A stretch of DNA of 41,830 nt, taken from contig JAISBM010000028.1 in assembly GCA_031266185.1 (NCBI GenBank), positions 1-41,830 of the forward strand, in the 5' to 3' direction. The translations under genes were made by a program, and so were the position numbers. Origin of the DNA: Endomicrobium sp. GTDB taxonomy: Bacteria; Elusimicrobiota; Endomicrobiia; Endomicrobiales; Endomicrobiaceae. The notes under the pieces were generated by a model. The model worked only from the letters and a program-made list of their open reading frames with translations. It was not told the DNA's origin and made no database searches. Numbering within the stretch: the stretch's first letter is position 1; each line of letters opens with the position of its first letter. This document shows, one piece after another, positions 4,588 through 20,774 of this stretch.

Positions 4588-4935
4588 TTAAATATTACTT
4601 TTCTCTATAATCTTATTGTTCTGATCTACAAAAACAATTTTAGGTTCAATAGGCCTATCTGAAAGAGTAAAACCCATAATTATTACTTCCTCACCTTTTT
4701 TTATTAAGTGAGCTGCCGCGCCATTTAAACATATACTACCAGAACCTGGCTTGCCCAGTATTACATAAGTTTCAAGCCTAGACCCAGAAGTATTAGAAAC
4801 CACTAAAACTTTTTCACCTATCCAAAAACCAGCTTTATCACAAAGCTCTGTGTCTATTGTTATACTTCCTTTATAGTTTAAATTGGCTTCTGTCACAGTA
4901 GCCTTAAATATTTTTGAACTTAAAACAAACTTCAT
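4588..4935 (-). CDS. panD: Aspartate 1-decarboxylase PanD (pyruvoyl-dependent)
   Basis: It makes beta-alanine from aspartate for pantothenate and coenzyme A synthesis. At 115 aa it has the normal PanD length. The self-cleavage site is seen in NYKGSITID, with Gly23-Ser24 as the cleavage pair and Ser24 becoming the pyruvoyl group. The substrate-binding Lys9 region (SSKIFKATVTEA), SGSRLETYVI and the GSGSICLNGAAA segment all match the family. AAGGAG precedes the ATG at 4935. It sits 24 bp after the mscS remnant, in line with the dksA-like and decarboxylase genes upstream. No other pantothenate gene is in the window. Confidence 0.95.
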   Translation of the reverse strand: MKFVLSSKIFKATVTEANLNYKGSITIDTELCDKAGFWIGEKVLVVSNTSGSRLETYVILGKPGSGSICLNGAAAHLIKKGEEVIIMGFTLSDRPIEPKIVFVDQNNKIIEKSNI

Positions 4936-4959
4936 TACAAACTCCTTAAAACTATTATG

Positions 4960-5151
4960 TTATTTATTCATTATTACAACTTTTTGAGGGAATGGAATCT
5001 CTATATTCTCTTCATTAAACTTTTTATAAATATTTTTCAAAACTTCACTTTGAAGTGACACTATAGAATACACATCTTTTAGCCTAAAAGAAACAGAAAA
5101 ATTTATAGCAAAATCTTTTGAAACAAACTTGCTTAAAAAGTCCAATACCAT
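4960..5151 (-). pseudogene. Remnant of an MscS-type mechanosensitive channel gene (C-terminal end only)
   Basis: This 63-codon reading frame resembles only the last 60 or so residues of MscS channels: FAINFSVSFRLKD, then IYKKFNEENIEIPFPQKVV, which matches the family's C-terminal alpha/beta domain and its IPFPQ ending. All membrane helices, including the pore helix, are missing, so it cannot form a channel. It still has an ATG at 5151 with AAGAGG in front, just past the dksA-like stop, and could be translated. The simplest reading is a deletion that removed the 5' part of the gene. A retained small protein is the alternative. Confidence 0.7.
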
Positions 5152-5153
5152 TT

Positions 5154-5507
5154 TTACCTCTTAGGGTTTTCAGCTTCTTCTTGGCACTTAATGCAATATC
5201 TTGTCCAAGGTATAGCATTTAATCTTTCTAAAAGTATAGCACTATTACAACACTCACAAAGACCATAACCACCTTTTTCTATTTTTACTAAAGCGTCGTT
5301 TATAGCATTTAAAGTTATCCTGTCATTTGCAGCAAGCTCAAAAAACATTTCTTTTTCACTATTTTGAGTAGCAGTGTCTATTTCATCACCAATGCTCACG
5401 TCTAAGTCACTCTTAAATTCTCTTTGAACATTATTTGTCTTGTTTAAAAACTCTGTTTTTTTTTGTATTAAAATTTTTTTAAAATTTGCTAAATCTTTTT
5501 TGTTCAT
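5154..5507 (-). CDS. DksA/TraR family zinc-finger transcription regulator
   Basis: This 117-aa protein has a coiled-coil N-terminal half and a C-terminal zinc finger with C84, C87, C105 and C108. The coiled-coil tip carries D41-x-x-D44-x-A46, the DxxDxA motif that DksA uses in the RNA polymerase secondary channel. An effect on RNA polymerase, as opposed to a purely structural role, is therefore plausible. E. coli DksA is about 151 aa, so this is a shorter form, like many in the family. The ATG at 5507 follows GGAGAAAATT. An upstream ATG at 5519 nearly touches the decarboxylase stop and has no ribosome site. It is probably co-transcribed with the decarboxylase and panD. Confidence 0.88.
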   Translation of the reverse strand: MNKKDLANFKKILIQKKTEFLNKTNNVQREFKSDLDVSIGDEIDTATQNSEKEMFFELAANDRITLNAINDALVKIEKGGYGLCECCNSAILLERLNAIPWTRYCIKCQEEAENPKR

Positions 5508-5519
5508 AATTTTCTCCAT

Positions 5520-7001
5520 TTAATTTGTAAAAACTTTAACCATTCTTAGCTTTTCAGTCTCTTGCCCGCTAATTCTTATATCTTTCGAAGACATATCTAT
5601 AAGATAATCGCATATCTCTTTTGTAATTCGCTCTCCAGGGATTACTACTGGTATCCCCGGAGGATACGGGGTAAGCGTCTGCGCAGCAACATGCCCAACA
5701 GCTTTTTTTAAACTAACTTTCTTTGTGTTATTTGAAAGAAACACTTCCCTGGGTCTCATAACCATTTCTGTAGCAAGAGATGGAATTTTTAGCACCCAAT
5801 TTTTTTGTTTACCGTGATAATTTTTATCTATAGTTTCAAGAGCTCTTACAAAAACTTCTACATCCTCTTTAGTTGACCCTTCTCCCATAATAGCTACCAA
5901 ATTAAACAGATCTGCATAATCAAGCTGAATATTATACTCTTTAGCAAGTATTTCTTCTATTTCATACCCTGAAAGCCCAGTTTTGGTTACGTTCACTGTA
6001 AGCTTTGTTTCATCCACGTCAAAACCTAAATCTTGCATTTCTTTGCGAGTGAAGCATCTCATAGAAGGAATATTGTTATTTATATACATTCTCCCCCATC
6101 TTGCAGCTTTTATAACTTTATCAAAATTCTCCTTTCCATGCAAAAACACTTGCCTTCTTGATAAGTCAAGACTTGCAAGTGTCAAATAGTTTGGACTTGT
6201 AGTTTGTAGCATTGAAACTATTTTTTTTACTCTGTTTATATCAATAAGTTTAGAATTAAAGTGAAGGACAGATCCTTGGGACATAGCAGATAAAATTTTA
6301 TGAGTAGACTGCACACACAAATCCGCACCAGCATCAACAGCAGACTCAGGCAAATTGTCGTTAAAGTGTAAATGCGCACCATGAGCTTCATCTACAAGAA
6401 CAATTTTACCTCTTTTATGGCATAAATCTACAATTTTTCTTAAATTAGTAACTACACCATTATATGTCGGACTTGTAACAAAAACTGCTTTTGATTCAGG
6501 ATATTTATCTAAAGCTTCTTTTATTTGGTCATAAGTTGCACTAAAAATTAAATCCAAATTTTGATCTATCTTAGGCTGTATCCAAATAGGCCACACTCCA
6601 GACATTACAATACCTGCCATTATAGACTTATGAGAACTTCTTGAAGCTATTATCGAATCTCCAGAATCGCAAGCAGAAAGAAACATAGCCATATTGCCAA
6701 CAGAAGTTCCATTTACTAGAAACAGAGAATGTTTTACTCCATAAGCTTCAGACATAAGTTCTTGAGCTTTTTTTATAGGACCAACAGGATCATGCAAAGA
6801 GTCCACTTCGTCAAAAACGGTAACATCAAACTTAAAAACTTCTTCTCCAACATAATTTTTTAAGTTTTCGTCTATACTCCTTCCATTTTTGTGACCTGGA
6901 CAATGAAAAGACGTAACACCTCTTTTAGCATGAGCCAACAAAATGTCAAATAGAGGAGCCTTAGACTGTTTTGCTATGTTAAAGTTTAATGCTTTTTTCA
7001 T
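5520..7001 (-). CDS. PLP-dependent Orn/Lys/Arg decarboxylase
   Basis: This fold-type I PLP decarboxylase has 493 aa and belongs to the short family without the N-terminal wing domain (SpeA/YaaO-like). The PLP-binding Lys is K235 in QSTHKILSAMSQGS. DEAHGAH (204-210) binds the cofactor. SFHCPGHKNG lies near the N terminus, and the C-terminal PPGIPVVIPGE motif is typical. The reaction makes agmatine, cadaverine or putrescine; the amino acid cannot be assigned from sequence. The ATG at 7001 follows GAAGGTAGG. An in-frame extension to 7064 would run through tRNA-Val and is not real. It starts 21 nt after tRNA-Val and heads the dksA-like/panD series. Confidence 0.9.
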   Translation of the reverse strand: MKKALNFNIAKQSKAPLFDILLAHAKRGVTSFHCPGHKNGRSIDENLKNYVGEEVFKFDVTVFDEVDSLHDPVGPIKKAQELMSEAYGVKHSLFLVNGTSVGNMAMFLSACDSGDSIIASRSSHKSIMAGIVMSGVWPIWIQPKIDQNLDLIFSATYDQIKEALDKYPESKAVFVTSPTYNGVVTNLRKIVDLCHKRGKIVLVDEAHGAHLHFNDNLPESAVDAGADLCVQSTHKILSAMSQGSVLHFNSKLIDINRVKKIVSMLQTTSPNYLTLASLDLSRRQVFLHGKENFDKVIKAARWGRMYINNNIPSMRCFTRKEMQDLGFDVDETKLTVNVTKTGLSGYEIEEILAKEYNIQLDYADLFNLVAIMGEGSTKEDVEVFVRALETIDKNYHGKQKNWVLKIPSLATEMVMRPREVFLSNNTKKVSLKKAVGHVAAQTLTPYPPGIPVVIPGERITKEICDYLIDMSSKDIRISGQETEKLRMVKVFTN

Positions 7002-10605: not shown

Positions 10606-13600
10606 TTAAAACTGAAAAGTTAGTTTACTCAAAGCAGTAATATCGTGATAATTTAAATTTCTGTTATATCGAAACTCAAACCTATCCCAAATAAGTCCAA
10701 AAATGAATCTAAAATATTTAGATATTTCATAATCAGTATTTAGCGAAACACCATAGTTTGTATTATTGTCTTTTTCTACATTTACTTGAGACTGCTGGTC
10801 TATATATTTAAGATTAGACGTAAAAATAATTCTGTTTCTAAGTGGAACAAATATTTTTATAATTGGTATCCTAAAGCCCGAAGGGAACAAAGTGTCTAAA
10901 TTTACTTGTCCTAAATAAGTATTTTTTTTAACATTAGACATATATCTTCCAGAAGCATTTTTTTGCCAATTATGTTCATTTTCATATCTTATAGAAAACC
11001 TCCATTTACCCACATCAAAAGCGCCCTGACACGCATATTTTTGACCATTACCATTATAAAGAACATCGTAAGTAATGTAATCATGTTCTTTAAAGTCTGT
11101 ATTATCTAAACCTAAATACAAATCAAAAAGTTTTATAAATTTGAACCTATACTCTAAACCACATAAAAGACTATCAGAATATGAAATTCCATAAGTTGTC
11201 ATATGCTTATTTTTATATTTAGCATTCAATTGAGTATCGCTTAAAAAATTTGTACTAAATAAAAGTCTCTCTGTTTTAGATATGCCTATAAGAATATCTG
11301 GCCAAGCCAACGTACATATAGTTCGTCTTGTTCCAGTTATATATGAATTTTCATCTCCTTGTGTGTAAGTACAATTAGTAGTAAACGTGTTTAATGGTAA
11401 AAGGTATCCTTGAAAAGAAAATATTTCAAAAGGCATATATTTTCCAGAAAAACGAATATCATCTTTATTTAAAATTGTTTTAACAATATAAGAATTGCTA
11501 GAATAAAAAGGTTCCAAATCCATTAAAATATTGCCTCTGACCCAAAGTCTGTCCATAGCAAAACCTATAGACCTGAAATCTTTATTTACCTTATCATAAG
11601 AATCAGAATCCTGTAATCTATAATATGTTGAAAAAGTTAAACTTTTAAATAGAGCTAAATTTGTAATATCACAAGCATTTAAGTTCCATGCAATTTCACC
11701 AACACCATTTCTTTCTATATATTTCTTTTGACCAGGTATTTTTAAAGTTGTTTGAGATGTACTTAAATTTATATCATAATTTTCTTTTGTGTTAATACTA
11801 TATATACAAGACGGACTAAACCAATTTACAAACCCTAAAATTAAACTTGCACCTACAGTTTGGTTTAAAGTTTTGTCGTACTCAATTTCAGCAGTAAAAT
11901 CGTTATTTTTTTCTTTTACCATATTTAATGAATAAGCTGGTAAAAATGTAACACCATCAAAAAATTTAAAAGGAAGTTTAAAAATAAACATATTAGACTG
12001 TTCTAACGTATGGTATTGATTAACGTCCAAATACTCGTTTATTTTGTCTAAACCTAAAAAAGAATCGGACTCTAGTATGGGAGTTGAAGGATAAACTTTA
12101 TAATAAGATTTTATCGTTTTTACATCAGCGTTAATATTTGTAGGCAACAGAAAAATTCTAATAGGGTTATTATAAACCATATTACCTGACAAACTTTCCC
12201 TATCCTCTAAACAACTGATTTTAGAAGTATCTATAATAGACCTACTATATTTTGCAGATACTTGCGGTAAATTTGTGCCTAAACTTAAATCAGTTTGAGT
12301 ATAACCCGTGTATGTTATTACTCGCCCTTCCTCGTTTAAAGAAATTAAATTAGACTTGTTTTCTATAACTTCAGGGGTTATTGTACACCTTCTTGAAATT
12401 CCAGTTTTGATAGGAAGAATACTTATATCTTCCTTAGGAGTAAAGCCTCCCAAACTAATATAAGCGTCTTCTTCAAGTAAATCTCTATTATACACTCCTG
12501 CTGCAAGATTCTGAAAATTTCTATTTATAGATTTTTTAGATCCTCCAACAGAAACTGCGCCTAAACTAGATGTTCCATTCCACTTAATGTCACCTGCTGT
12601 TTTATAAGCTTTACCTATGGTCTGTTTACTACCAATTACATGCAATTCTTTAAACCAAATTTGATGTTTGCTTCCCACAGAGTTTGACTTAACACCTAAC
12701 ACAAATTGAGAAATCCTATTTAATGACGGGTTTCCAGTTACTGTTATCTGTCCATCGGGGTCAACGCTTGTCCAGGAGGCATTTTTTCCAAAACCTGATT
12801 GATTAATTTTAATAACTTTCCAATCTTGCCACGATACATCATTACTCACTATAGTTTTATACTCAAAATAATTATCATCATTTCCACAAGCTCTAAATAT
12901 TATTTCATCTCCTACTTGTGCAAAACCATCACTAGGCTTTGCATAAATCATAAAACATATACTGTCATATTTAGATATATCTAAAACATCTCCAGTATAA
13001 ACCACTTTTGCCAGTAAAGGAACATTAGTAATAAACGTATCATAAAAAAACTTTAAAGCATTTTCATCTTTTTTAATTTGACCACTTATTCCATATAAAT
13101 CTAAATAGTATTTACTAGTTAAAATTGACTTATATTCAGGGTCATATCTTCCTATAGAAGAAATACTAAAATTATCTGCATTAAGACCTGTCTTTTCCCA
13201 TTTGTTCCCAACTATAGAAATTTTGCCTATAATAATCTTACCTATATCACCTCCGGAAGCCATCTGTCTCATTCTAATACGCAAAATTCTTATATTTTTC
13301 CAATTTGCCCTATTAGCATCATTTATACCTAAAGGTATCCTGACTTGTTTCCAGCCATTAATATTCTGTTTAATTACAGTAGCACTCGAGCTTGAAAGAC
13401 TGTAACTTCCAGCTATGTCTTCTAAAGTATCTAGTACTCCATTGCCATTTATGTCTTCCGTGTCAAGTTTACCATTATGAGCACCTATTAAAGATAGTGT
13501 GCCGTCAACATTATGAAATTTTCGGCCAGTATCTTTCCAAGGACTTAAAATTCCTGTGCCATCGACATCTTCAGTATCTAACACACCACATCCATCTGAA

Positions 13601-15915
13601 TCCTCATTAATACATGAAGCACAATCTATCACCATTTCATGCAAGTTAGAGCTATTATCTTTCATCCACACTTCAAGATAGAGTTTTTTAGAAAAATCTA
13701 AACCGTCCCAATTTGGACAAATTTTTTGAGCAAAAGCTATTTGACTTCTATACCTAACATCGTAATTTAACTCTAAAACCAGTTGTTTTTGACCATCAAC
13801 TAGCTCCAAACTTGTATCAATATCTTTTATGTTGATCTCATAACTATTCCAAGATAAATCGTTTAACATTCTTCTTGTTGTAGGGTATTTATCTGCGCTA
13901 TGAAACCAATTATCTTCTAAAAGAATAATTGAATCTTCTCTAACAGAACTGTCCATAGAATCTATTAAAGCTTTATTTACAGTATTTTCATTATAAGCAC
14001 TTAAAGCGTACTCTGCATTTGCATTAAGTTGTATATTTAATGCATCTATATTTAAATTATCAATTTTAAAATCGCCCTCTCCTACAGTAAGACTTGTAGG
14101 CGCATTCCTTATATCTGGCAAAACTGTACTTTTAGGCATAAAATTGTGCAACATACTCGCACCAATAGAAATGTTTTCAGTTAAGTTAAACTTACTACTA
14201 GCTCCAAGAAGAATAGTCTCTACCTGAGCACCTAATAAAGAGTAATCATAAGACACATCTATCACAGAGTTTTCTTTTATTATATTTTCATTCTTTATTG
14301 TTAAAATACCTAAATCATAATCTAAAATATAATCTATCTCAGAACTTAAAGTGACACCATCAACAACAACTTTCTCCGACTTTGGGACGATGTTTGGTCT
14401 TAACATTATTATTTTGACATTGTACTGGTACTCTGTCTCAAAATTATATTTATGCTCATTAGTTAAATACAAAGAATCGTGCAAAGTTTCAGACAATCTA
14501 AAAATACCATTTTCAAAATCAACGTCAATATTTGCATTATATCCTGACTTTTGAGGATATAATGGTACATTTTTACCTCCATCAATAACTGCAGGAGTAT
14601 TACCATTGAGATCTTTAATTATAAGTAAAAAATTTCCTCTTCCATTATCTCTTATTATTTTTAAATTACCTAAGTTATAAAAAGTTTTAATTTCTGTAGT
14701 GATATTTTGAATATCATTAATATCCTTAATAATTAAAGGGTTAACTGAAAGAGGCTTGCCATCTTCAAAATCATAATTTACAGCTACAACATCACCTTTA
14801 GATATGGAGTTTTTAAAAACAAGCACACTAGTATTATAGTCAACAGTAAAATCTTGCCCTGCAACAAGAAGAACAAAGTTTCCCTTATAAGAAAAACCAG
14901 CAGTAGCATTTAAATCATAAAGAGTTACATCTGAAGTAATAGAAAAATTATATTTTGGGTCTAACTTTTGATAAGCCACATACACCTTAACTGTTCCACT
15001 TTTTATTTTACGATTATCCCCATTTCTTAAAAGAGAATAATATTTTAATTTTATATAAGCAGTATCTGGTATAACTCGTCTTTCTAACTGAGTATTTCCT
15101 ACAAAACGTTTAACTTCAGAAAGACCTTTGGTTTTACTAAAAAAAGCGTTAACTCCTAAATTTTTATAACGAGTATCCACTTTTAAACCAAACAGTTCTT
15201 TTTTATACCCTGTAAATTCTGTCGTAGGTAATGATACTTCTATATCACCAAATGAAGCCTGTTGTATAAATTCTTTAGGTTTTCCATTATATATTAAAGA
15301 TATATCCTTTTTTTCTGCTTTATCATCATAATCGATATTAACATTAACCCTATCACCAACCCCGCCTAAAACTCTCATCTGCATTTCTTGTTCCATTTTA
15401 AATGACGATGAATTTTGACGCTTACCATCTTCTTGATTATCATAAACTCTTTGTGAATAATTAAAGCCTATCAATTTTCTTCCAGCAATTGATAAGCTGG
15501 ACTGAAACGGTAACTTTATTTTAGTCAAAGAAGTAGACGAAACTAAAACGGTATTTGTGTCAGAGATAATGATATCTTTTAGTAACCAACTATTTTGCGA
15601 ATACTTTATATTATCATCTTCTTTATTTTTAAAATATTTTAAAATTTCCTGACCTGCAATTTCTTGAGCAGATTCTGGCAATTTAAACTCATCATGGGGT
15701 GAAAAGTATTCTTGGGATATTATTGTGCCAGATGGCTCAACAGCATCAACATTTTTAAACATATTGTACTTATCAAACTCTTTATAAACTTCATCCTTGT
15801 AAGTTCCAAGTACAGAATATTCATTTTCAACATCTTTAGAATTTACTTTATATGTTAGAGTAATTAATATAAGAAATATTAAAATAAAAAATTTAACTTT
15901 TTGAAAAGGTTTCAT
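10606..15915 (-). CDS. sprA: SprA/Sov-like giant outer-membrane protein (type IX secretion channel homologue)
   Basis: This 1769-aa exported protein has a signal peptide (about residues 1-26, hydrophobic FFILIFLILITLT). SprA forms the large outer-membrane barrel of the type IX secretion system. Family signatures here are LSIAGRKLIGFNYSQRVY (141-158), FKMEQEMQMRVLGGVGDRV (172-190), DYDDKAEKKDISLIYNG (195-211), ASFGDIEVSLPTTEF (220-234) and KTKGLSEVKRFVGNTQLERR (261-280). The middle has DTEDxDGxG-type loops (about 765-840). The C-terminal half is alternating, aromatic-rich beta sequence ending in LTFQF. Bacteroidota SprA proteins are usually about 2300-2500 aa, so this is a compact form. It follows the PorV-like gene by 6 bp. 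Assignment rests on motif memory, not a search. Confidence 0.8.
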   Translation of the reverse strand: MKPFQKVKFFILIFLILITLTYKVNSKDVENEYSVLGTYKDEVYKEFDKYNMFKNVDAVEPSGTIISQEYFSPHDEFKLPESAQEIAGQEILKYFKNKEDDNIKYSQNSWLLKDIIISDTNTVLVSSTSLTKIKLPFQSSLSIAGRKLIGFNYSQRVYDNQEDGKRQNSSSFKMEQEMQMRVLGGVGDRVNVNIDYDDKAEKKDISLIYNGKPKEFIQQASFGDIEVSLPTTEFTGYKKELFGLKVDTRYKNLGVNAFFSKTKGLSEVKRFVGNTQLERRVIPDTAYIKLKYYSLLRNGDNRKIKSGTVKVYVAYQKLDPKYNFSITSDVTLYDLNATAGFSYKGNFVLLVAGQDFTVDYNTSVLVFKNSISKGDVVAVNYDFEDGKPLSVNPLIIKDINDIQNITTEIKTFYNLGNLKIIRDNGRGNFLLIIKDLNGNTPAVIDGGKNVPLYPQKSGYNANIDVDFENGIFRLSETLHDSLYLTNEHKYNFETEYQYNVKIIMLRPNIVPKSEKVVVDGVTLSSEIDYILDYDLGILTIKNENIIKENSVIDVSYDYSLLGAQVETILLGASSKFNLTENISIGASMLHNFMPKSTVLPDIRNAPTSLTVGEGDFKIDNLNIDALNIQLNANAEYALSAYNENTVNKALIDSMDSSVREDSIILLEDNWFHSADKYPTTRRMLNDLSWNSYEINIKDIDTSLELVDGQKQLVLELNYDVRYRSQIAFAQKICPNWDGLDFSKKLYLEVWMKDNSSNLHEMVIDCASCINEDSDGCGVLDTEDVDGTGILSPWKDTGRKFHNVDGTLSLIGAHNGKLDTEDINGNGVLDTLEDIAGSYSLSSSSATVIKQNINGWKQVRIPLGINDANRANWKNIRILRIRMRQMASGGDIGKIIIGKISIVGNKWEKTGLNADNFSISSIGRYDPEYKSILTSKYYLDLYGISGQIKKDENALKFFYDTFITNVPLLAKVVYTGDVLDISKYDSICFMIYAKPSDGFAQVGDEIIFRACGNDDNYFEYKTIVSNDVSWQDWKVIKINQSGFGKNASWTSVDPDGQITVTGNPSLNRISQFVLGVKSNSVGSKHQIWFKELHVIGSKQTIGKAYKTAGDIKWNGTSSLGAVSVGGSKKSINRNFQNLAAGVYNRDLLEEDAYISLGGFTPKEDISILPIKTGISRRCTITPEVIENKSNLISLNEEGRVITYTGYTQTDLSLGTNLPQVSAKYSRSIIDTSKISCLEDRESLSGNMVYNNPIRIFLLPTNINADVKTIKSYYKVYPSTPILESDSFLGLDKINEYLDVNQYHTLEQSNMFIFKLPFKFFDGVTFLPAYSLNMVKEKNNDFTAEIEYDKTLNQTVGASLILGFVNWFSPSCIYSINTKENYDINLSTSQTTLKIPGQKKYIERNGVGEIAWNLNACDITNLALFKSLTFSTYYRLQDSDSYDKVNKDFRSIGFAMDRLWVRGNILMDLEPFYSSNSYIVKTILNKDDIRFSGKYMPFEIFSFQGYLLPLNTFTTNCTYTQGDENSYITGTRRTICTLAWPDILIGISKTERLLFSTNFLSDTQLNAKYKNKHMTTYGISYSDSLLCGLEYRFKFIKLFDLYLGLDNTDFKEHDYITYDVLYNGNGQKYACQGAFDVGKWRFSIRYENEHNWQKNASGRYMSNVKKNTYLGQVNLDTLFPSGFRIPIIKIFVPLRNRIIFTSNLKYIDQQSQVNVEKDNNTNYGVSLNTDYEISKYFRFIFGLIWDRFEFRYNRNLNYHDITALSKLTFQF

Positions 15916-15921
15916 TTACGA

Positions 15922-17673
15922 TTACTCAAGCTTAATTTTTTTTATTCTATGTAAAGCGATTTTTGCTTTTTTATGATTAGGGTTTAATCTTAAAGCAAGC
16001 TCCCACATCCTGCTTGCTTGATAGTACTTACCTTGAGCATACAAGACAAGCCCTTCTCTGTATTTTTCATCTGAAGTAACTTCATCATATTTGACTTCTT
16101 CTCTTAAAGACTCTTTATCATTTGAGTCTACTACTAACGCACCATTTGACAATTCAATAACGCATTTATTTATATATTCTTTAGCTTTATTATAAAATTC
16201 TACTGACCTTGAAAAATTATTACTACTTATAAATTTGTCTATAGATTCCATCTTTTTAATACACTGTATCCATTTTTTCAAACTATAAAGTTCAATTCCT
16301 TCTTGAAAAAGTTTTTGAACTTTAAAGGTAATCTCTTTTTCTCTATCTTCCATTTCTTTTAATTTTAAAATGTTATCTATCTCATCTTTATACTCAAAAA
16401 CTTCTGCTTTTCCTCCAGTAAACGCTATATATTTTGTCCATTCATTTAAAGCTTCCTTATAATTTGCATTATAATATTCAATATAAGCTTTAGCATAATA
16501 TTTATCAGCAAAATCAAGATTTTTATCATTAGCCTCATTATTCATCAATGTAATAATATCGTTATAAAAATGATTTGGTGATTCAAAATTTGGATAAGAA
16601 ACAATGACTTTTGACAATTTATCTGTAGCTTTTAAATACTCTTTTTTATTATATAACTCCTTTGCTTTTTTAAACTCTTCTTGAGCTATCTTCATAGAAG
16701 ATATTTCTTCATCTAGGGCAATTTTTGCTTCTTTTAATAAAGCATCACACTTTTTCCCCCACCTATATGTCAACATAAATCTGTTTATCAAATCTATTTC
16801 ACTAAAATCTGCAGCATAGTCTACTGTAAACATATAAAAATCAGCTCCTGCACCAAATGTAATATGCTTACTATAATATCCTGTACGTAAAGCATATTTT
16901 TCTGCAAAAATATAAGACAATCCTGTACAAATGTCACCAAAAGAATCTTCATACTTTAAATCTACATAAATATTAAAGGTATCCTTTGACATAAACCTAT
17001 AATATGTTGGCAAAACAAAAGCAGAACTAAATCTACAAATTAAAGGTATTTCGGAAAAGGTGTAATCAAGATTAAGTTTATTTGAAATAAAATTTTGCAC
17101 AGAAAAAGCAACTTTTATTTTTATAGTATCTACCAAAAACACCTCTTTTGCTAAACCAAAATCACAGCAATATGTTGCTCCTTTTTTTAAGTACATATCA
17201 GAATATACATATTTTACGTTTAATCCATACATAACTGCCAAACTTTCTACAAAACCCGAAAAAGAAAAAACATAATTCCAACTATTTACAGAAATAACTT
17301 TCTCTAAAGCATAAATATTTTCTCTTATTTCAATATTCCCACTAGCTAAATTAGATGCAGAAAGTCCAAGATAAAATTTTTTACACACTCTAAAAGCAAG
17401 TGTTGCAGAATTATAAGAAGAACCTTCAAACAAATTAAAACGAGATACAGATACTGCATTTGCAGCAAAAGACATTAAAGCTGGATTATATTGTAAAAGT
17501 GACGGATCTCTGCAAGCAGAAAAAACAGTTTCTCCGGCACCAAAAGCAGCAACGCTTGGGCCATGCGATAAAAAATGTTTTCTTCTACCTGAATATCCAT
17601 ATATTTCTTTAGCTTGAAATATCAATAATAACAATAGAAGAGCTAATATTATTTTATTATAAGTATTCTGCAC
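15922..17673 (-). CDS. PorV/UPF0164-like outer-membrane beta-barrel with C-terminal TPR-like domain
   Basis: This 583-aa exported protein has a signal peptide (KIILALLLLLLIFQA, cut near residue 27). HGPSVAAFGAGETVFSACRDPSLLQYNPALMSF is the UPF0164/PorV-type (FadL-related) start, and about 280 residues of barrel-like beta strands follow. From about residue 310 to the end the sequence is helical with tetratricopeptide-like units, such as ATDKLSKVIVSYP and GLVLYAQGKYYQASRMWELALRLNPNHKKA. Classic PorV has only the barrel (about 390 aa), so this is a fusion. PorV delivers cargo to the type IX channel. The start is GTG at 17673, inside the previous gene (25-bp overlap), with GGA upstream. Confidence 0.75.
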   Translation of the reverse strand: MQNTYNKIILALLLLLLIFQAKEIYGYSGRRKHFLSHGPSVAAFGAGETVFSACRDPSLLQYNPALMSFAANAVSVSRFNLFEGSSYNSATLAFRVCKKFYLGLSASNLASGNIEIRENIYALEKVISVNSWNYVFSFSGFVESLAVMYGLNVKYVYSDMYLKKGATYCCDFGLAKEVFLVDTIKIKVAFSVQNFISNKLNLDYTFSEIPLICRFSSAFVLPTYYRFMSKDTFNIYVDLKYEDSFGDICTGLSYIFAEKYALRTGYYSKHITFGAGADFYMFTVDYAADFSEIDLINRFMLTYRWGKKCDALLKEAKIALDEEISSMKIAQEEFKKAKELYNKKEYLKATDKLSKVIVSYPNFESPNHFYNDIITLMNNEANDKNLDFADKYYAKAYIEYYNANYKEALNEWTKYIAFTGGKAEVFEYKDEIDNILKLKEMEDREKEITFKVQKLFQEGIELYSLKKWIQCIKKMESIDKFISSNNFSRSVEFYNKAKEYINKCVIELSNGALVVDSNDKESLREEVKYDEVTSDEKYREGLVLYAQGKYYQASRMWELALRLNPNHKKAKIALHRIKKIKLE

Positions 17674-18821
17674 CGTTGAGTTTCCGTTTTATCACTGTAC
17701 TTTGTAGTTAAAATTGCAATATAACTCCCATTATAAAGAGTTCTTCCTGAATTATCTTTTCCATCATACTTCATGTTGCCAGTAGTATTCCCATCAAAAA
17801 AAGATTTATCTGATTCCCAAACAAGGTCACCATATTCAGAATAAATTTTTATTTCAGCGGTGCCGTCATAATACATAGGAAAAACAAAGTCAGTTACTGT
17901 ACCTATATCAGGATTAAATGGATTAGGTGCATTATAAAACTTTTCTACTAACCCTCCTGTAAAAAAAGAAAACATTTCAGTTTCAAGAGATACTCCAAAC
18001 TTATTTTTTATAATCATATACCAATAATATTTTTTCTTATGCTTTAATTTTGATATGTTATGAGATAAAGAATTAATATCTGGACTTTTTTCTAATTTTT
18101 TAATATCAGACTTTTTTGATTCAAGCCCTAAATATAACTCATAAGATAGTTTATCATCATTTTCATCACTATTTATGTTCCAAGACAAACATACATTGTC
18201 TGGTATTTCTTCAAATGTAGAATGTGGTGATTTTTTGACAAAATTGTAAGGTCTAGTGGTAACATGCCAATTTCCTTTTACTTCGCACAAATTATTACTG
18301 TCATATTTGTTTGTGGTTATATACTTATACTCATAACTACCTTTATCCAATTTTAAAGTATATATATATGAAGCTTTATATTTATCTACAGACCCACCTT
18401 CATGCATTGAGTAAATTTTAGTTGAAGCATCAGGAAATTTTAATAGAATTTTTGGATAGCCTTCTTGAGGGGCATTATTTGCTACATCATTATGCACTAC
18501 ATTAAAAATAACGTCTTCTTCATCATATATAGAAACAGAATCACTTTGATGTTGTGGAGTTAAAAGTTTAAATTCTAAATTAGGTTCATAATCAAACTCT
18601 TCAAAATATAAATTCGTAATCTCTACATAACTTTCATTACTACCAGCAGATATCTTAGAACAAAAAGGGCAAATAATACTATCCTCATACAAAAAGTCAC
18701 ACGACATGAAGAAATTATTATAATTAAAAATTTGGTACTCTGAATTATTAAAAAAAGCTTTTAAGGTTTTTGGCATAGTAACTAATAAAAGAATGGCAAA
18801 CAAACAGATAAAATTTTTCAT
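17649..18821 (-). CDS. Secreted multi-domain protein with PNPFNP/FlgD-Ig type C-terminal tail (candidate type IX cargo)
   Basis: This 390-aa protein has a signal peptide (about 1-22, ICLFAILLLVTM) and no other membrane segment. Residues 90-190 are beta-rich and end in SYIYTLKLDKGSYEYKYI, reminiscent of the E-set/CBM48 fold. Residues 195-290 resemble a fibronectin type III module. The last 100 residues start APNPFNPD (298-305) and contain EIKIYSEYGDLVW and YDGKDNSGRTLYNGSYI. This is the pattern of FlgD-type Ig domains and type A sorting domains. The gene directly precedes the PorV-like and SprA-like genes. I do not recognise a catalytic domain. It may be cargo or a structural partner of the channel. 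Confidence 0.7.
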   Translation of the reverse strand: MKNFICLFAILLLVTMPKTLKAFFNNSEYQIFNYNNFFMSCDFLYEDSIICPFCSKISAGSNESYVEITNLYFEEFDYEPNLEFKLLTPQHQSDSVSIYDEEDVIFNVVHNDVANNAPQEGYPKILLKFPDASTKIYSMHEGGSVDKYKASYIYTLKLDKGSYEYKYITTNKYDSNNLCEVKGNWHVTTRPYNFVKKSPHSTFEEIPDNVCLSWNINSDENDDKLSYELYLGLESKKSDIKKLEKSPDINSLSHNISKLKHKKKYYWYMIIKNKFGVSLETEMFSFFTGGLVEKFYNAPNPFNPDIGTVTDFVFPMYYDGTAEIKIYSEYGDLVWESDKSFFDGNTTGNMKYDGKDNSGRTLYNGSYIAILTTKYSDKTETQRCRILIIK

Positions 18822-18842: not shown

Positions 18843-20774
18843 TTAATTTAAAATTCCACTATCGTACCACTTGTCTTTTGCAGTTAAATAACAGACCAGT
18901 TTCTCTATTGAAAACAATAACTTTTCATTCTTTTCAAACAACAATTTTTTTTGTTTATTATAAACATCTTTCCAATCGCAACTTAAAACCCCTTCACTAT
19001 TTATCAGATAAACTTGTTCTCCTTCATAAGAAAGAAAAACAAATCTATTTTTTGTTTTAGAAAACAAGCTTTTTCCTAAAGAAGAGTACGGAATTTTTAT
19101 GTTCAACAAATCAATTATTGTAGGCACAATGTCAATTTGGCTTGCAAGATCGGTATTCCGTTGGAACTCAAACAACTTTGGGCAGTATATTATTGCTGGA
19201 ATTTTAAATGTTTTGTCTACTTTTGTCTTTTCAAAAAGCCCATTTATCCCACCAACCCCATAAGCTTGATGATCAGAAAGTAATATAAAAATTGTTTTAT
19301 CAAACCACTTAGACTCTTTTACTTTTTTAAAAAATTCGCCCAACGCATAGTCAGAATAATACAGCCTGTTTAAATATCCAGTTTTCTCTGTACCATCTTC
19401 AGGATATTTTTCAAGGGATTTTAAAACTGTTTTTGTGTAAGGTATGTGTGTGCTTGAAGTAAAGCAAAATCCAAAAAAAGGACTTTTTAATTTTTGAACT
19501 TTATTAAAGAAAAACTCCAGACACTCTATATCATAACCTTTACTTATCTGCAAATAGTTATGATGAAGTGGAATATCTTGCCTACCATAAGATTCGTTAA
19601 AACCTAAATAATTTGCTATTGCTATCGCATTATCGGATTCCCTTTTATCACCTTGAACAAATACATTGTCATACCCACTCTTTCCTAGTATCGCAGGCAG
19701 TCTTGTTTGACCGCAATTTTCAAGACCTTGTCCAAAATACAGCATACCTTTTACATAAGGAATACTCAAAAAAACTGACATCAAGCCCATTATACTTCTT
19801 TGCCCATTAGCATAAAAGTTGTCAAATATTATTGATTCTTTAGAAATGTTGTCAAAATTTGGAGTAACACCATAGTTTGTTCCAGCCAACGAATCTATAT
19901 AATCTTTTTGCCAACTTTCAAGCAAGATAATTATAACATTATACCCTTGCACGTTCACATTAAACTTAATTCTTTGCCTCATTAAAGGATATTTATCATC
20001 TACAAAAACTTCTTCATTTTTATCTAAAAGGTTATCTCTTAAAACAGAAAGTGCATTTTGATAAGAAACATTTATATTATTTGGCAAAGTTTGAGCGCTT
20101 ATACTTTTTAAAGAAGTAAAAACACCGTTTAGCTGTAATTCTCCTGAAATTTTATTTCTAGAATACGCATCTGTAATAGAAAGAATCCTCTCTTGCACCC
20201 CGCCTCTAGAAAAAACAACCAGAATAAAAGCTACTATAAAAGTTACAAATAAATTTAAAGCAGTATCTTTTTGTGAATAATAATAGTTTTTATTTATAAA
20301 TTGGAACGAAAAATAAAACAACAAAATAAAAACTAATATGATTGTTAAAGTGATAAAAAAATAATCTTTAAACGCTAAACTCAAAAAGTAACTGACATGA
20401 TTTTTAGCCAATAAAATTTCTGTAGTTAAGTGTTTATTAAAAAATTTAAAATTAATTATATCCCCAGCAAGTAATAAAGCAGTAAAGAAAGTAAAAATAT
20501 TAAGGAAACTACTATTGATTTTTAAAAATAATTTAGATTTTATAGGTATATTTATTAAAAACAAAAGAATTCCACAAACCACAGAAATCGCAAAAACATC
20601 AAAACGAAACCCCAGTAAAAAAGAATATAAAAGTTCAAGACAAGACAATTGATTAAAAAATCTGTAATTAGTACACAACAGTGCAACCCTAAATGCAAAG
20701 AAAACAGCAATTAAGGTGGAAAAGTATAGTACAGTTAATTTTAATCTGAACAAATTTTTATTATATTTATTCAA
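18843..20774 (-). CDS. LtaS/MdoB-family phosphoglycerol (or phosphoethanolamine) transferase-like membrane enzyme
   Basis: This 643-aa inner-membrane enzyme has about five N-terminal transmembrane helices (to residue 188) and an extracytoplasmic sulfatase/alkaline-phosphatase fold. Metal-site and catalytic candidates are E286 (IIILLESW), the nucleophile position S327 (GQRSIMG; Thr in S. aureus LtaS), H443 (SSTHIPY) and D501-H502 (LLSDHQAYG). The family moves polar head groups from phospholipids to periplasmic glycans, lipoteichoic acid or LPS. Which acceptor applies here is unknown. The start is TTG at 20774 with GGGA upstream; no other usable start lies nearby. It is the link between the glycan genes and the SprA-like block, which begins 22 bp downstream. 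Confidence 0.82.
   Translation of the reverse strand: MNKYNKNLFRLKLTVLYFSTLIAVFFAFRVALLCTNYRFFNQLSCLELLYSFLLGFRFDVFAISVVCGILLFLINIPIKSKLFLKINSSFLNIFTFFTALLLAGDIINFKFFNKHLTTEILLAKNHVSYFLSLAFKDYFFITLTIILVFILLFYFSFQFINKNYYYSQKDTALNLFVTFIVAFILVVFSRGGVQERILSITDAYSRNKISGELQLNGVFTSLKSISAQTLPNNINVSYQNALSVLRDNLLDKNEEVFVDDKYPLMRQRIKFNVNVQGYNVIIILLESWQKDYIDSLAGTNYGVTPNFDNISKESIIFDNFYANGQRSIMGLMSVFLSIPYVKGMLYFGQGLENCGQTRLPAILGKSGYDNVFVQGDKRESDNAIAIANYLGFNESYGRQDIPLHHNYLQISKGYDIECLEFFFNKVQKLKSPFFGFCFTSSTHIPYTKTVLKSLEKYPEDGTEKTGYLNRLYYSDYALGEFFKKVKESKWFDKTIFILLSDHQAYGVGGINGLFEKTKVDKTFKIPAIIYCPKLFEFQRNTDLASQIDIVPTIIDLLNIKIPYSSLGKSLFSKTKNRFVFLSYEGEQVYLINSEGVLSCDWKDVYNKQKKLLFEKNEKLLFSIEKLVCYLTAKDKWYDSGILN

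Follow-up and report, generated by a model that had tools for sequence, protein, structure and literature searches.

A type IX-like tail protein paired with a putative PorV-type carrier in Candidatus Endomicrobiellum (Elusimicrobiota)

The window, meaning the whole 41,830-nucleotide stretch of DNA that was analysed, carries on its minus strand a run of genes in the order LtaS-like sulfatase, CAND, PorV-TPR, SprA and ComF (Table 1). CAND is a working name for a tail-bearing secreted protein of 390 aa, the main subject here. An initial annotation had set this locus in a Bacteroidota frame, which has to be given up: the organism is a Candidatus Endomicrobiellum, a member of the Elusimicrobiota from the termite gut, and its SprA-like protein is 84-97% identical to those of Candidatus Endomicrobiellum genomes. 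An LtaS-like gene also lies upstream of CAND in four other genomes (G080, G058, G064, G048); in G084 (L007:5335-7067) it is broken, while CAND, PorV-TPR and SprA are intact.

Table 1. Features of the CAND locus and of one related pair elsewhere; positions are those of the window unless a locus is named.
Feature	Position	Strand	Evidence or remark
LtaS-like sulfatase-fold membrane protein	18843..20774	minus	21 nt upstream of CAND, same direction; Pfam Sulfatase 1.8e-29
CAND, 390 aa, predicted secreted	17649..18821	minus	ORF list; full-length orthologues in relatives
CAND Sec signal peptide, ~residues 1-22 (MKNFICLFAILLLVTMPKTLKA)	18756..18821	minus	Read from sequence
CAND Ig-like/early-set module, ~residues 80-190	18252..18584	minus	Strands in low-confidence model
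CAND FnIII-like module, ~residues 200-290	17952..18224	minus	fn3 in orthologues
CAND C-terminal sorting-type tail, residues 293-390	17652..17945	minus	Tail profile; model strands
Overlap of CAND end with PorV-TPR start, 25 nt	17649..17673	minus	Orthologous loci compared
PorV-family barrel fused to TPR region (PorV-TPR), 583 aa, proposed cognate carrier/anchor	15922..17673	minus	NF033709, TPR_2
SprA/Sov-like outer-membrane translocon, 1769 aa, proposed channel	10606..15915	minus	TIGR04189 1.3e-40
Tail-only protein and second PorV-TPR in G005	L179:4258-4599 and 4596-6752		Same pair in L194-L204

Full-length CAND orthologues are found in about 31 of the 77 Endomicrobiaceae genomes, and they keep the K/R plus hydrophobic start. 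Between signal peptide and tail, the Ig-like/early-set module gives CBM48/X25 matches in single orthologues, and the FnIII-like module is matched weakly by FnIII domains of titin and neogenin; fn3 itself is recognized just N-terminal of the tail in 10 of 27 orthologues (best 4.2e-6). Pfam searches of CAND and the 27 orthologues gave no peptidase match. A model built from six close sequences has seven strands in the tail, at the low confidence of pLDDT 41.8 (39.1 for a PorV-TPR model made likewise). Pairwise identity among orthologues is 0.36 for residues 23-290 vs 0.60 for the tail; in the last seven residues, part of the conservation may be attributable to the overlapping reading frame of the next gene.

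The tail has the motifs APNPFNPD (from residue 298), GDLVW (331-335) and DGKDNSGRTLYNGSY (353-367). When 25 tails of other Elusimicrobiota proteins are combined into a profile that leaves CAND out, CAND is matched at 39.1 bits over residues 293-389, with nothing significant in the rest of the protein. Pfam CHU_C, a type IX signal domain, scores below its cut-off on CAND itself (22.2 vs 27 bits); among the 27 orthologues it is found in 15 (E<=0.01), and FlgD_ig in 14 (best 1.4e-7). Por_Secre_tail (PF18962) has no match in CAND and is matched by 15 of the 17 members of the tail alignment. Searched against the PDB, the tail profile matches the C-terminal domain of PorZ best (2.3e-11) and then that of PorU (9.1e-10), with FlgD further behind; PorZ and PorU are type IX components whose tails are described as uncleaved (PMC11285876). 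By homology, then, the CAND tail is a real FlgD-Ig/type IX-like tail. Identification of CAND as a whole FlgD was dropped, the match reaching 13.7 bits against a cut-off of 258 and being confined to the tail region. Much of the initial annotation is upheld by these comparisons: the ORF, its motifs and its FlgD-Ig-like tail are confirmed (the tail as type IX-like), the fn3 matches agree with an FnIII-like N-terminal part, and the neighbours had rightly been called PorV-like and SprA-like, on matches (E=1.1e-17 and E=1.3e-40) that both lie below the NCBI cut-offs.

Such tails are not peculiar to CAND. Within the window's own genome, which is 52% complete, a single-sequence search returned CAND alone; the profile returned three tail proteins, namely CAND and two subtilases, one truncated by a contig end and the other frameshifted. 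The frameshift-split subtilase has a Por_Secre-type tail (L178:7193-8840, G000:C15) and is intact in the relative G005 (L181). That relative, 99% complete, has five tail proteins: besides CAND there are three subtilases, and the fifth, of 113 aa, consists of a signal peptide and a tail. The tails thus sit on subtilases and other signal-peptide proteins too, and the family match is not flagellar, so neither finding that was to refute the initial annotation (a tail in CAND alone, or only in cytoplasmic or flagellar proteins) applies.

PorV-TPR matches the PorV-family model NF033709 over residues 33-302 (E=1.1e-17, 64.6 bits, below the 90-bit cut-off) and TPR_2 at residues 538-567 (7.4e-7). The PorP/SprF model TIGR03519 gives 18.8 bits (cut-off 90.55), against 64.6 for the PorV family; other PorV-family copies exceed the NF033709 cut-off in 17 of 26 genomes. 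The PorV-TPR gene comes directly after CAND in 28 of 30 Endomicrobiaceae loci, a few of them with broken genes, and their overlap measures exactly 25 nt at 25 of the 26 testable loci (four being measured from an internal start that aligns with the others), despite protein identities of ~30%. The exception is G048, where another gene stands behind CAND in place of PorV-TPR. This joint inheritance and fixed overlap suggest that each exported protein, or group of proteins, may have its own carrier.

The same arrangement recurs with other tails. In 12 genomes, a second PorV-TPR gene is followed by one for a tail-only protein (113-161 aa; signal peptide and tail, no cargo); this second PorV-TPR is normally ~718 aa, and the ORF in L204 (G064) is only 343 aa. 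Among the matches listed, 40 of 55 PorV genes in the family are paired with a tail gene, which lies on the same strand immediately before 18 of them and after 22. In three genomes of other families (G012, G037, G078), a PorV gene follows within 700 nt downstream of 22 of 37 tails, where 0.14 would be expected. The pair classes (CAND/PorV-TPR, tail-only/PorV-TPR, subtilase/PorV and ~410-aa/PorV) separate as clades or clusters in both the tail tree and the barrel tree. Each of the four is one strongly supported clade in the barrel tree; in the tail tree, branches are long and some nodes have modest support (the tail-only class 77/91), with one CAND-like 855-aa protein inside the CAND class and the paired subtilase tails sharing a clade with orphan ones. 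Judged from gene order and trees, tail/PorV pairing is a general rule, and the family holds at least four tail/barrel pairs.

SprA is the less constant neighbour. An SprA-like protein is encoded in 209 of the 248 Elusimicrobiota genomes sampled, and a 13-member profile from the phylum retrieves Flavobacterium SprA from the PDB (2e-37); a single-sequence search of the PDB with the window's SprA had no match. SprA adjoins the CAND/PorV-TPR pair only in a single clade of six species: that of the window and five close to it. SprA was considered as CAND's fixed partner, and dropped on comparison of 40 SprA loci with 30 CAND loci. On the single contig of G023, CAND lies at 243 kb and SprA is found at 648 kb; because of this separation of ~400 kb, the CAND/PorV-TPR pair can be taken as independent of SprA linkage. 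In many Elusimicrobiota, SprA adjoins a pair of lptF-lptG-like genes and comF (L040, L042, L048, L055, L074, L191, L192), the former encoding YjgP/YjgQ-type permeases as read from their sequences. Several other families have a ~550-aa protein with an export-type tail near SprA (L048:13992-15635, L049-L052, L063), and the L048 copy has a HEYGHQ metallopeptidase motif.

For the initial annotation, these comparisons cut both ways. The scattering of cargo genes that it cited for Bacteroidota does not extend to Elusimicrobiota, where a tail gene regularly has a PorV gene as its partner. The linkage to SprA that it pointed out is there, and is confined to six close species. Its suggestion of a dedicated substrate or structural subunit has good support as far as PorV-TPR is concerned, and fails for SprA as the dedicated partner: from conserved gene arrangement, it is well supported that CAND's dedicated partner would be the PorV-type barrel, not the SprA channel.

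CAND and SprA nevertheless tend to be present and to be lost together. SprA is present in 29 of 31 genomes with an intact CAND vs 10 of 46 without (Fisher 2e-10, in a sample whose related genomes are not independent), and tails were found in 20 of 21 SprA genomes vs 2 of 11 SprA-less genomes tested. Decayed remnants of both CAND and SprA are present in G017, G124 and G172; the 1.1-Mb G017 has remnants of CAND, PorV-TPR and SprA together (L185:8554-9674, L186). As read from these remnants, SprA, CAND and tails are lost together in reduced genomes. There are exceptions. The 99%-complete genome G118, in 280 contigs, still has the CAND/PorV-TPR pair along with eight tail matches; a search of it for SprA detected none, and comF directly follows PorV-TPR (L193:6986-10667). 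G072 has an intact SprA and no detected tail, possibly because a subtilase runs off a contig.

Type IX features matched in Elusimicrobiota are the SprA/Sov translocon, a PorV-family carrier and a C-terminal signal domain on several proteins. For the motor, searches of 33 genomes gave no GldL match over cut-off and no GldM match; neither search matched in a control genome either, so a motor may have been missed. For the sortase PorU (NF033707), none of 29 genomes had a match over cut-off, and the matches obtained cover model positions 863-1094, which is the tail region only, a pattern that fits tail retention.

The explanation we lean toward, with somewhat better than even confidence, is that CAND serves as a dedicated substrate and remains attached to a PorV-type carrier of its own, its tail being recognized by the SprA-type channel together with PorV-TPR. 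It draws on the tail homology, the pairing, the overlap, the shared loss and the matching clades; from these we infer Sec export, SprA passage, binding or capture, retention, topology and surface display, as follows. CAND would be made together with the barrel, by translational coupling through the 25-nt overlap, would cross the inner membrane by Sec and would then pass through SprA. Its tail would be captured by PorV-TPR docked on SprA, and the uncleaved tail would hold it to the barrel; retention of the tail is proposed because no PorU-type sortase was detected. The Ig/FnIII part would be displayed on the surface, with the TPR part facing the periplasm.

Another possibility, which we rate as unlikely, is that CAND is a fixed subunit of a PorV-TPR complex or of the translocon, in the way that PorU and PorZ sit on PorV and PorQ, and not a cargo: other tail proteins, the subtilases among them, would then depend on it for export, with the Ig/FnIII part of CAND as a scaffold. 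The tail is better conserved than the rest of CAND, as such a role would have it, and the PDB relatives of the tail profile are headed by PorZ and PorU themselves. In G001 (99% complete, SprA intact) CAND is the sole remaining tail match, and a tail can evidently exist without cargo, since the tail-only protein pairs with a second PorV-TPR in 12 genomes. However, G060 and G056 possess SprA together with several tails, yet their protein with a CAND-like end is a different one of 855-860 aa, and in G064 CAND is broken while other tail genes are intact. A fixed subunit also overlaps with a dedicated substrate as an explanation, and the two are hard to tell apart by sequence. A related idea, which we regard as unlikely, is that the SprA/PorV route runs without a GldLM motor and that tails are permanent PorV-TPR subunits, CAND and the tail-only protein being structural members.

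The position of SprA beside lptF-lptG in most of the phylum, and an LptD match in only 3 of 22 genomes, could alternatively mean that the SprA-like protein serves lipopolysaccharide transport and that the tail is merely an Ig-fold interaction domain in a periplasmic complex; the clear homology to a protein translocon and the largely joint presence or absence of tails and SprA make this improbable. It is very improbable that CAND is an ordinary type A-like cargo lying ahead of PorV and SprA by accident: SprA linkage is truly limited to six species and there are further tail genes elsewhere in the genome, but the identical overlap with PorV-TPR at such low protein identity, and the generality of the pairing, speak against chance. 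A relationship to the flagellar hook-cap protein FlgD, whose models weakly match the tail in up to 16 of 27 orthologues, is hardly credible for a protein with a signal peptide, an FnIII part, a PorV partner and a tail profile that fits PorZ and PorU better.

If CAND is a dedicated substrate with its own carrier, it combines features of several known systems. With Bacteroidota type A cargo it shares a Sec signal peptide, a C-terminal Ig-like tail, and PNP and G..V motifs. A single PorV serves all type A cargo in Bacteroidota; unlike this, Endomicrobiaceae have many PorV copies, paired with tails. Type A substrates are also characterized by Por_Secre_tail and a PorU sortase, neither of which was found for CAND. 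A cognate barrel gene directly downstream is instead a type B feature: in Flavobacterium, the gene that comes right after that of a type B substrate is usually the one for its carrier, as in the F. johnsoniae pairs SprB-SprF and Fjoh_3952-Fjoh_3951, whose carriers are PorP/SprF-like 14-strand barrels (PMC12618676). As there, the substrate gene here is directly upstream of its own barrel gene, there are several pairs per genome, and orphan substrates apparently share a carrier (PMC12618676). Unlike there, the barrel is PorV-like and TPR-fused, and the tail matches CHU_C below cut-off; because the family model makes the barrel PorV-like rather than PorP-like, we do not classify CAND/PorV-TPR as a type B pair. 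The PorE-PorP-PG1035 complex of Porphyromonas gingivalis (a periplasmic TPR protein, a barrel and a tail protein; PMC9143113) offers the same trio, with barrel and TPR here joined in a single polypeptide, PorV-TPR, where a search for domains showed none that binds peptidoglycan. The PorU/PorV and PorZ/PorQ attachment complex likewise links tail-retaining proteins to FadL-family barrels, but CAND lacks any peptidase match, and a PorU-type sortase was not detected. By analogy, the best reading is that CAND/PorV-TPR works in the manner of two kinds of pair known from Bacteroidota, type B substrate with SprF and PorU with PorV.

Two reviews (PMC7463736, PMC11205867) assign type IX secretion to Bacteroidota or the FCB superphylum, and a non-exhaustive search of the open-licence literature found no description of it in Elusimicrobiota. 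The pairing reaches further than the initial annotation supposed: CAND and PorV-TPR make up one of several putative cargo/carrier pairs, in a phylum beyond this usual range. An SprA found across the phylum, together with numerous tail/PorV pairs, would reveal the reach of the type IX route and, if the proposal is true, PorV, not only SprF-type barrels, could act as a dedicated carrier. Carrier specificity can be tested by way of the pairs, the tail-only protein and the joint decay seen in reduced genomes, and these would also name the proteins that the symbionts display.
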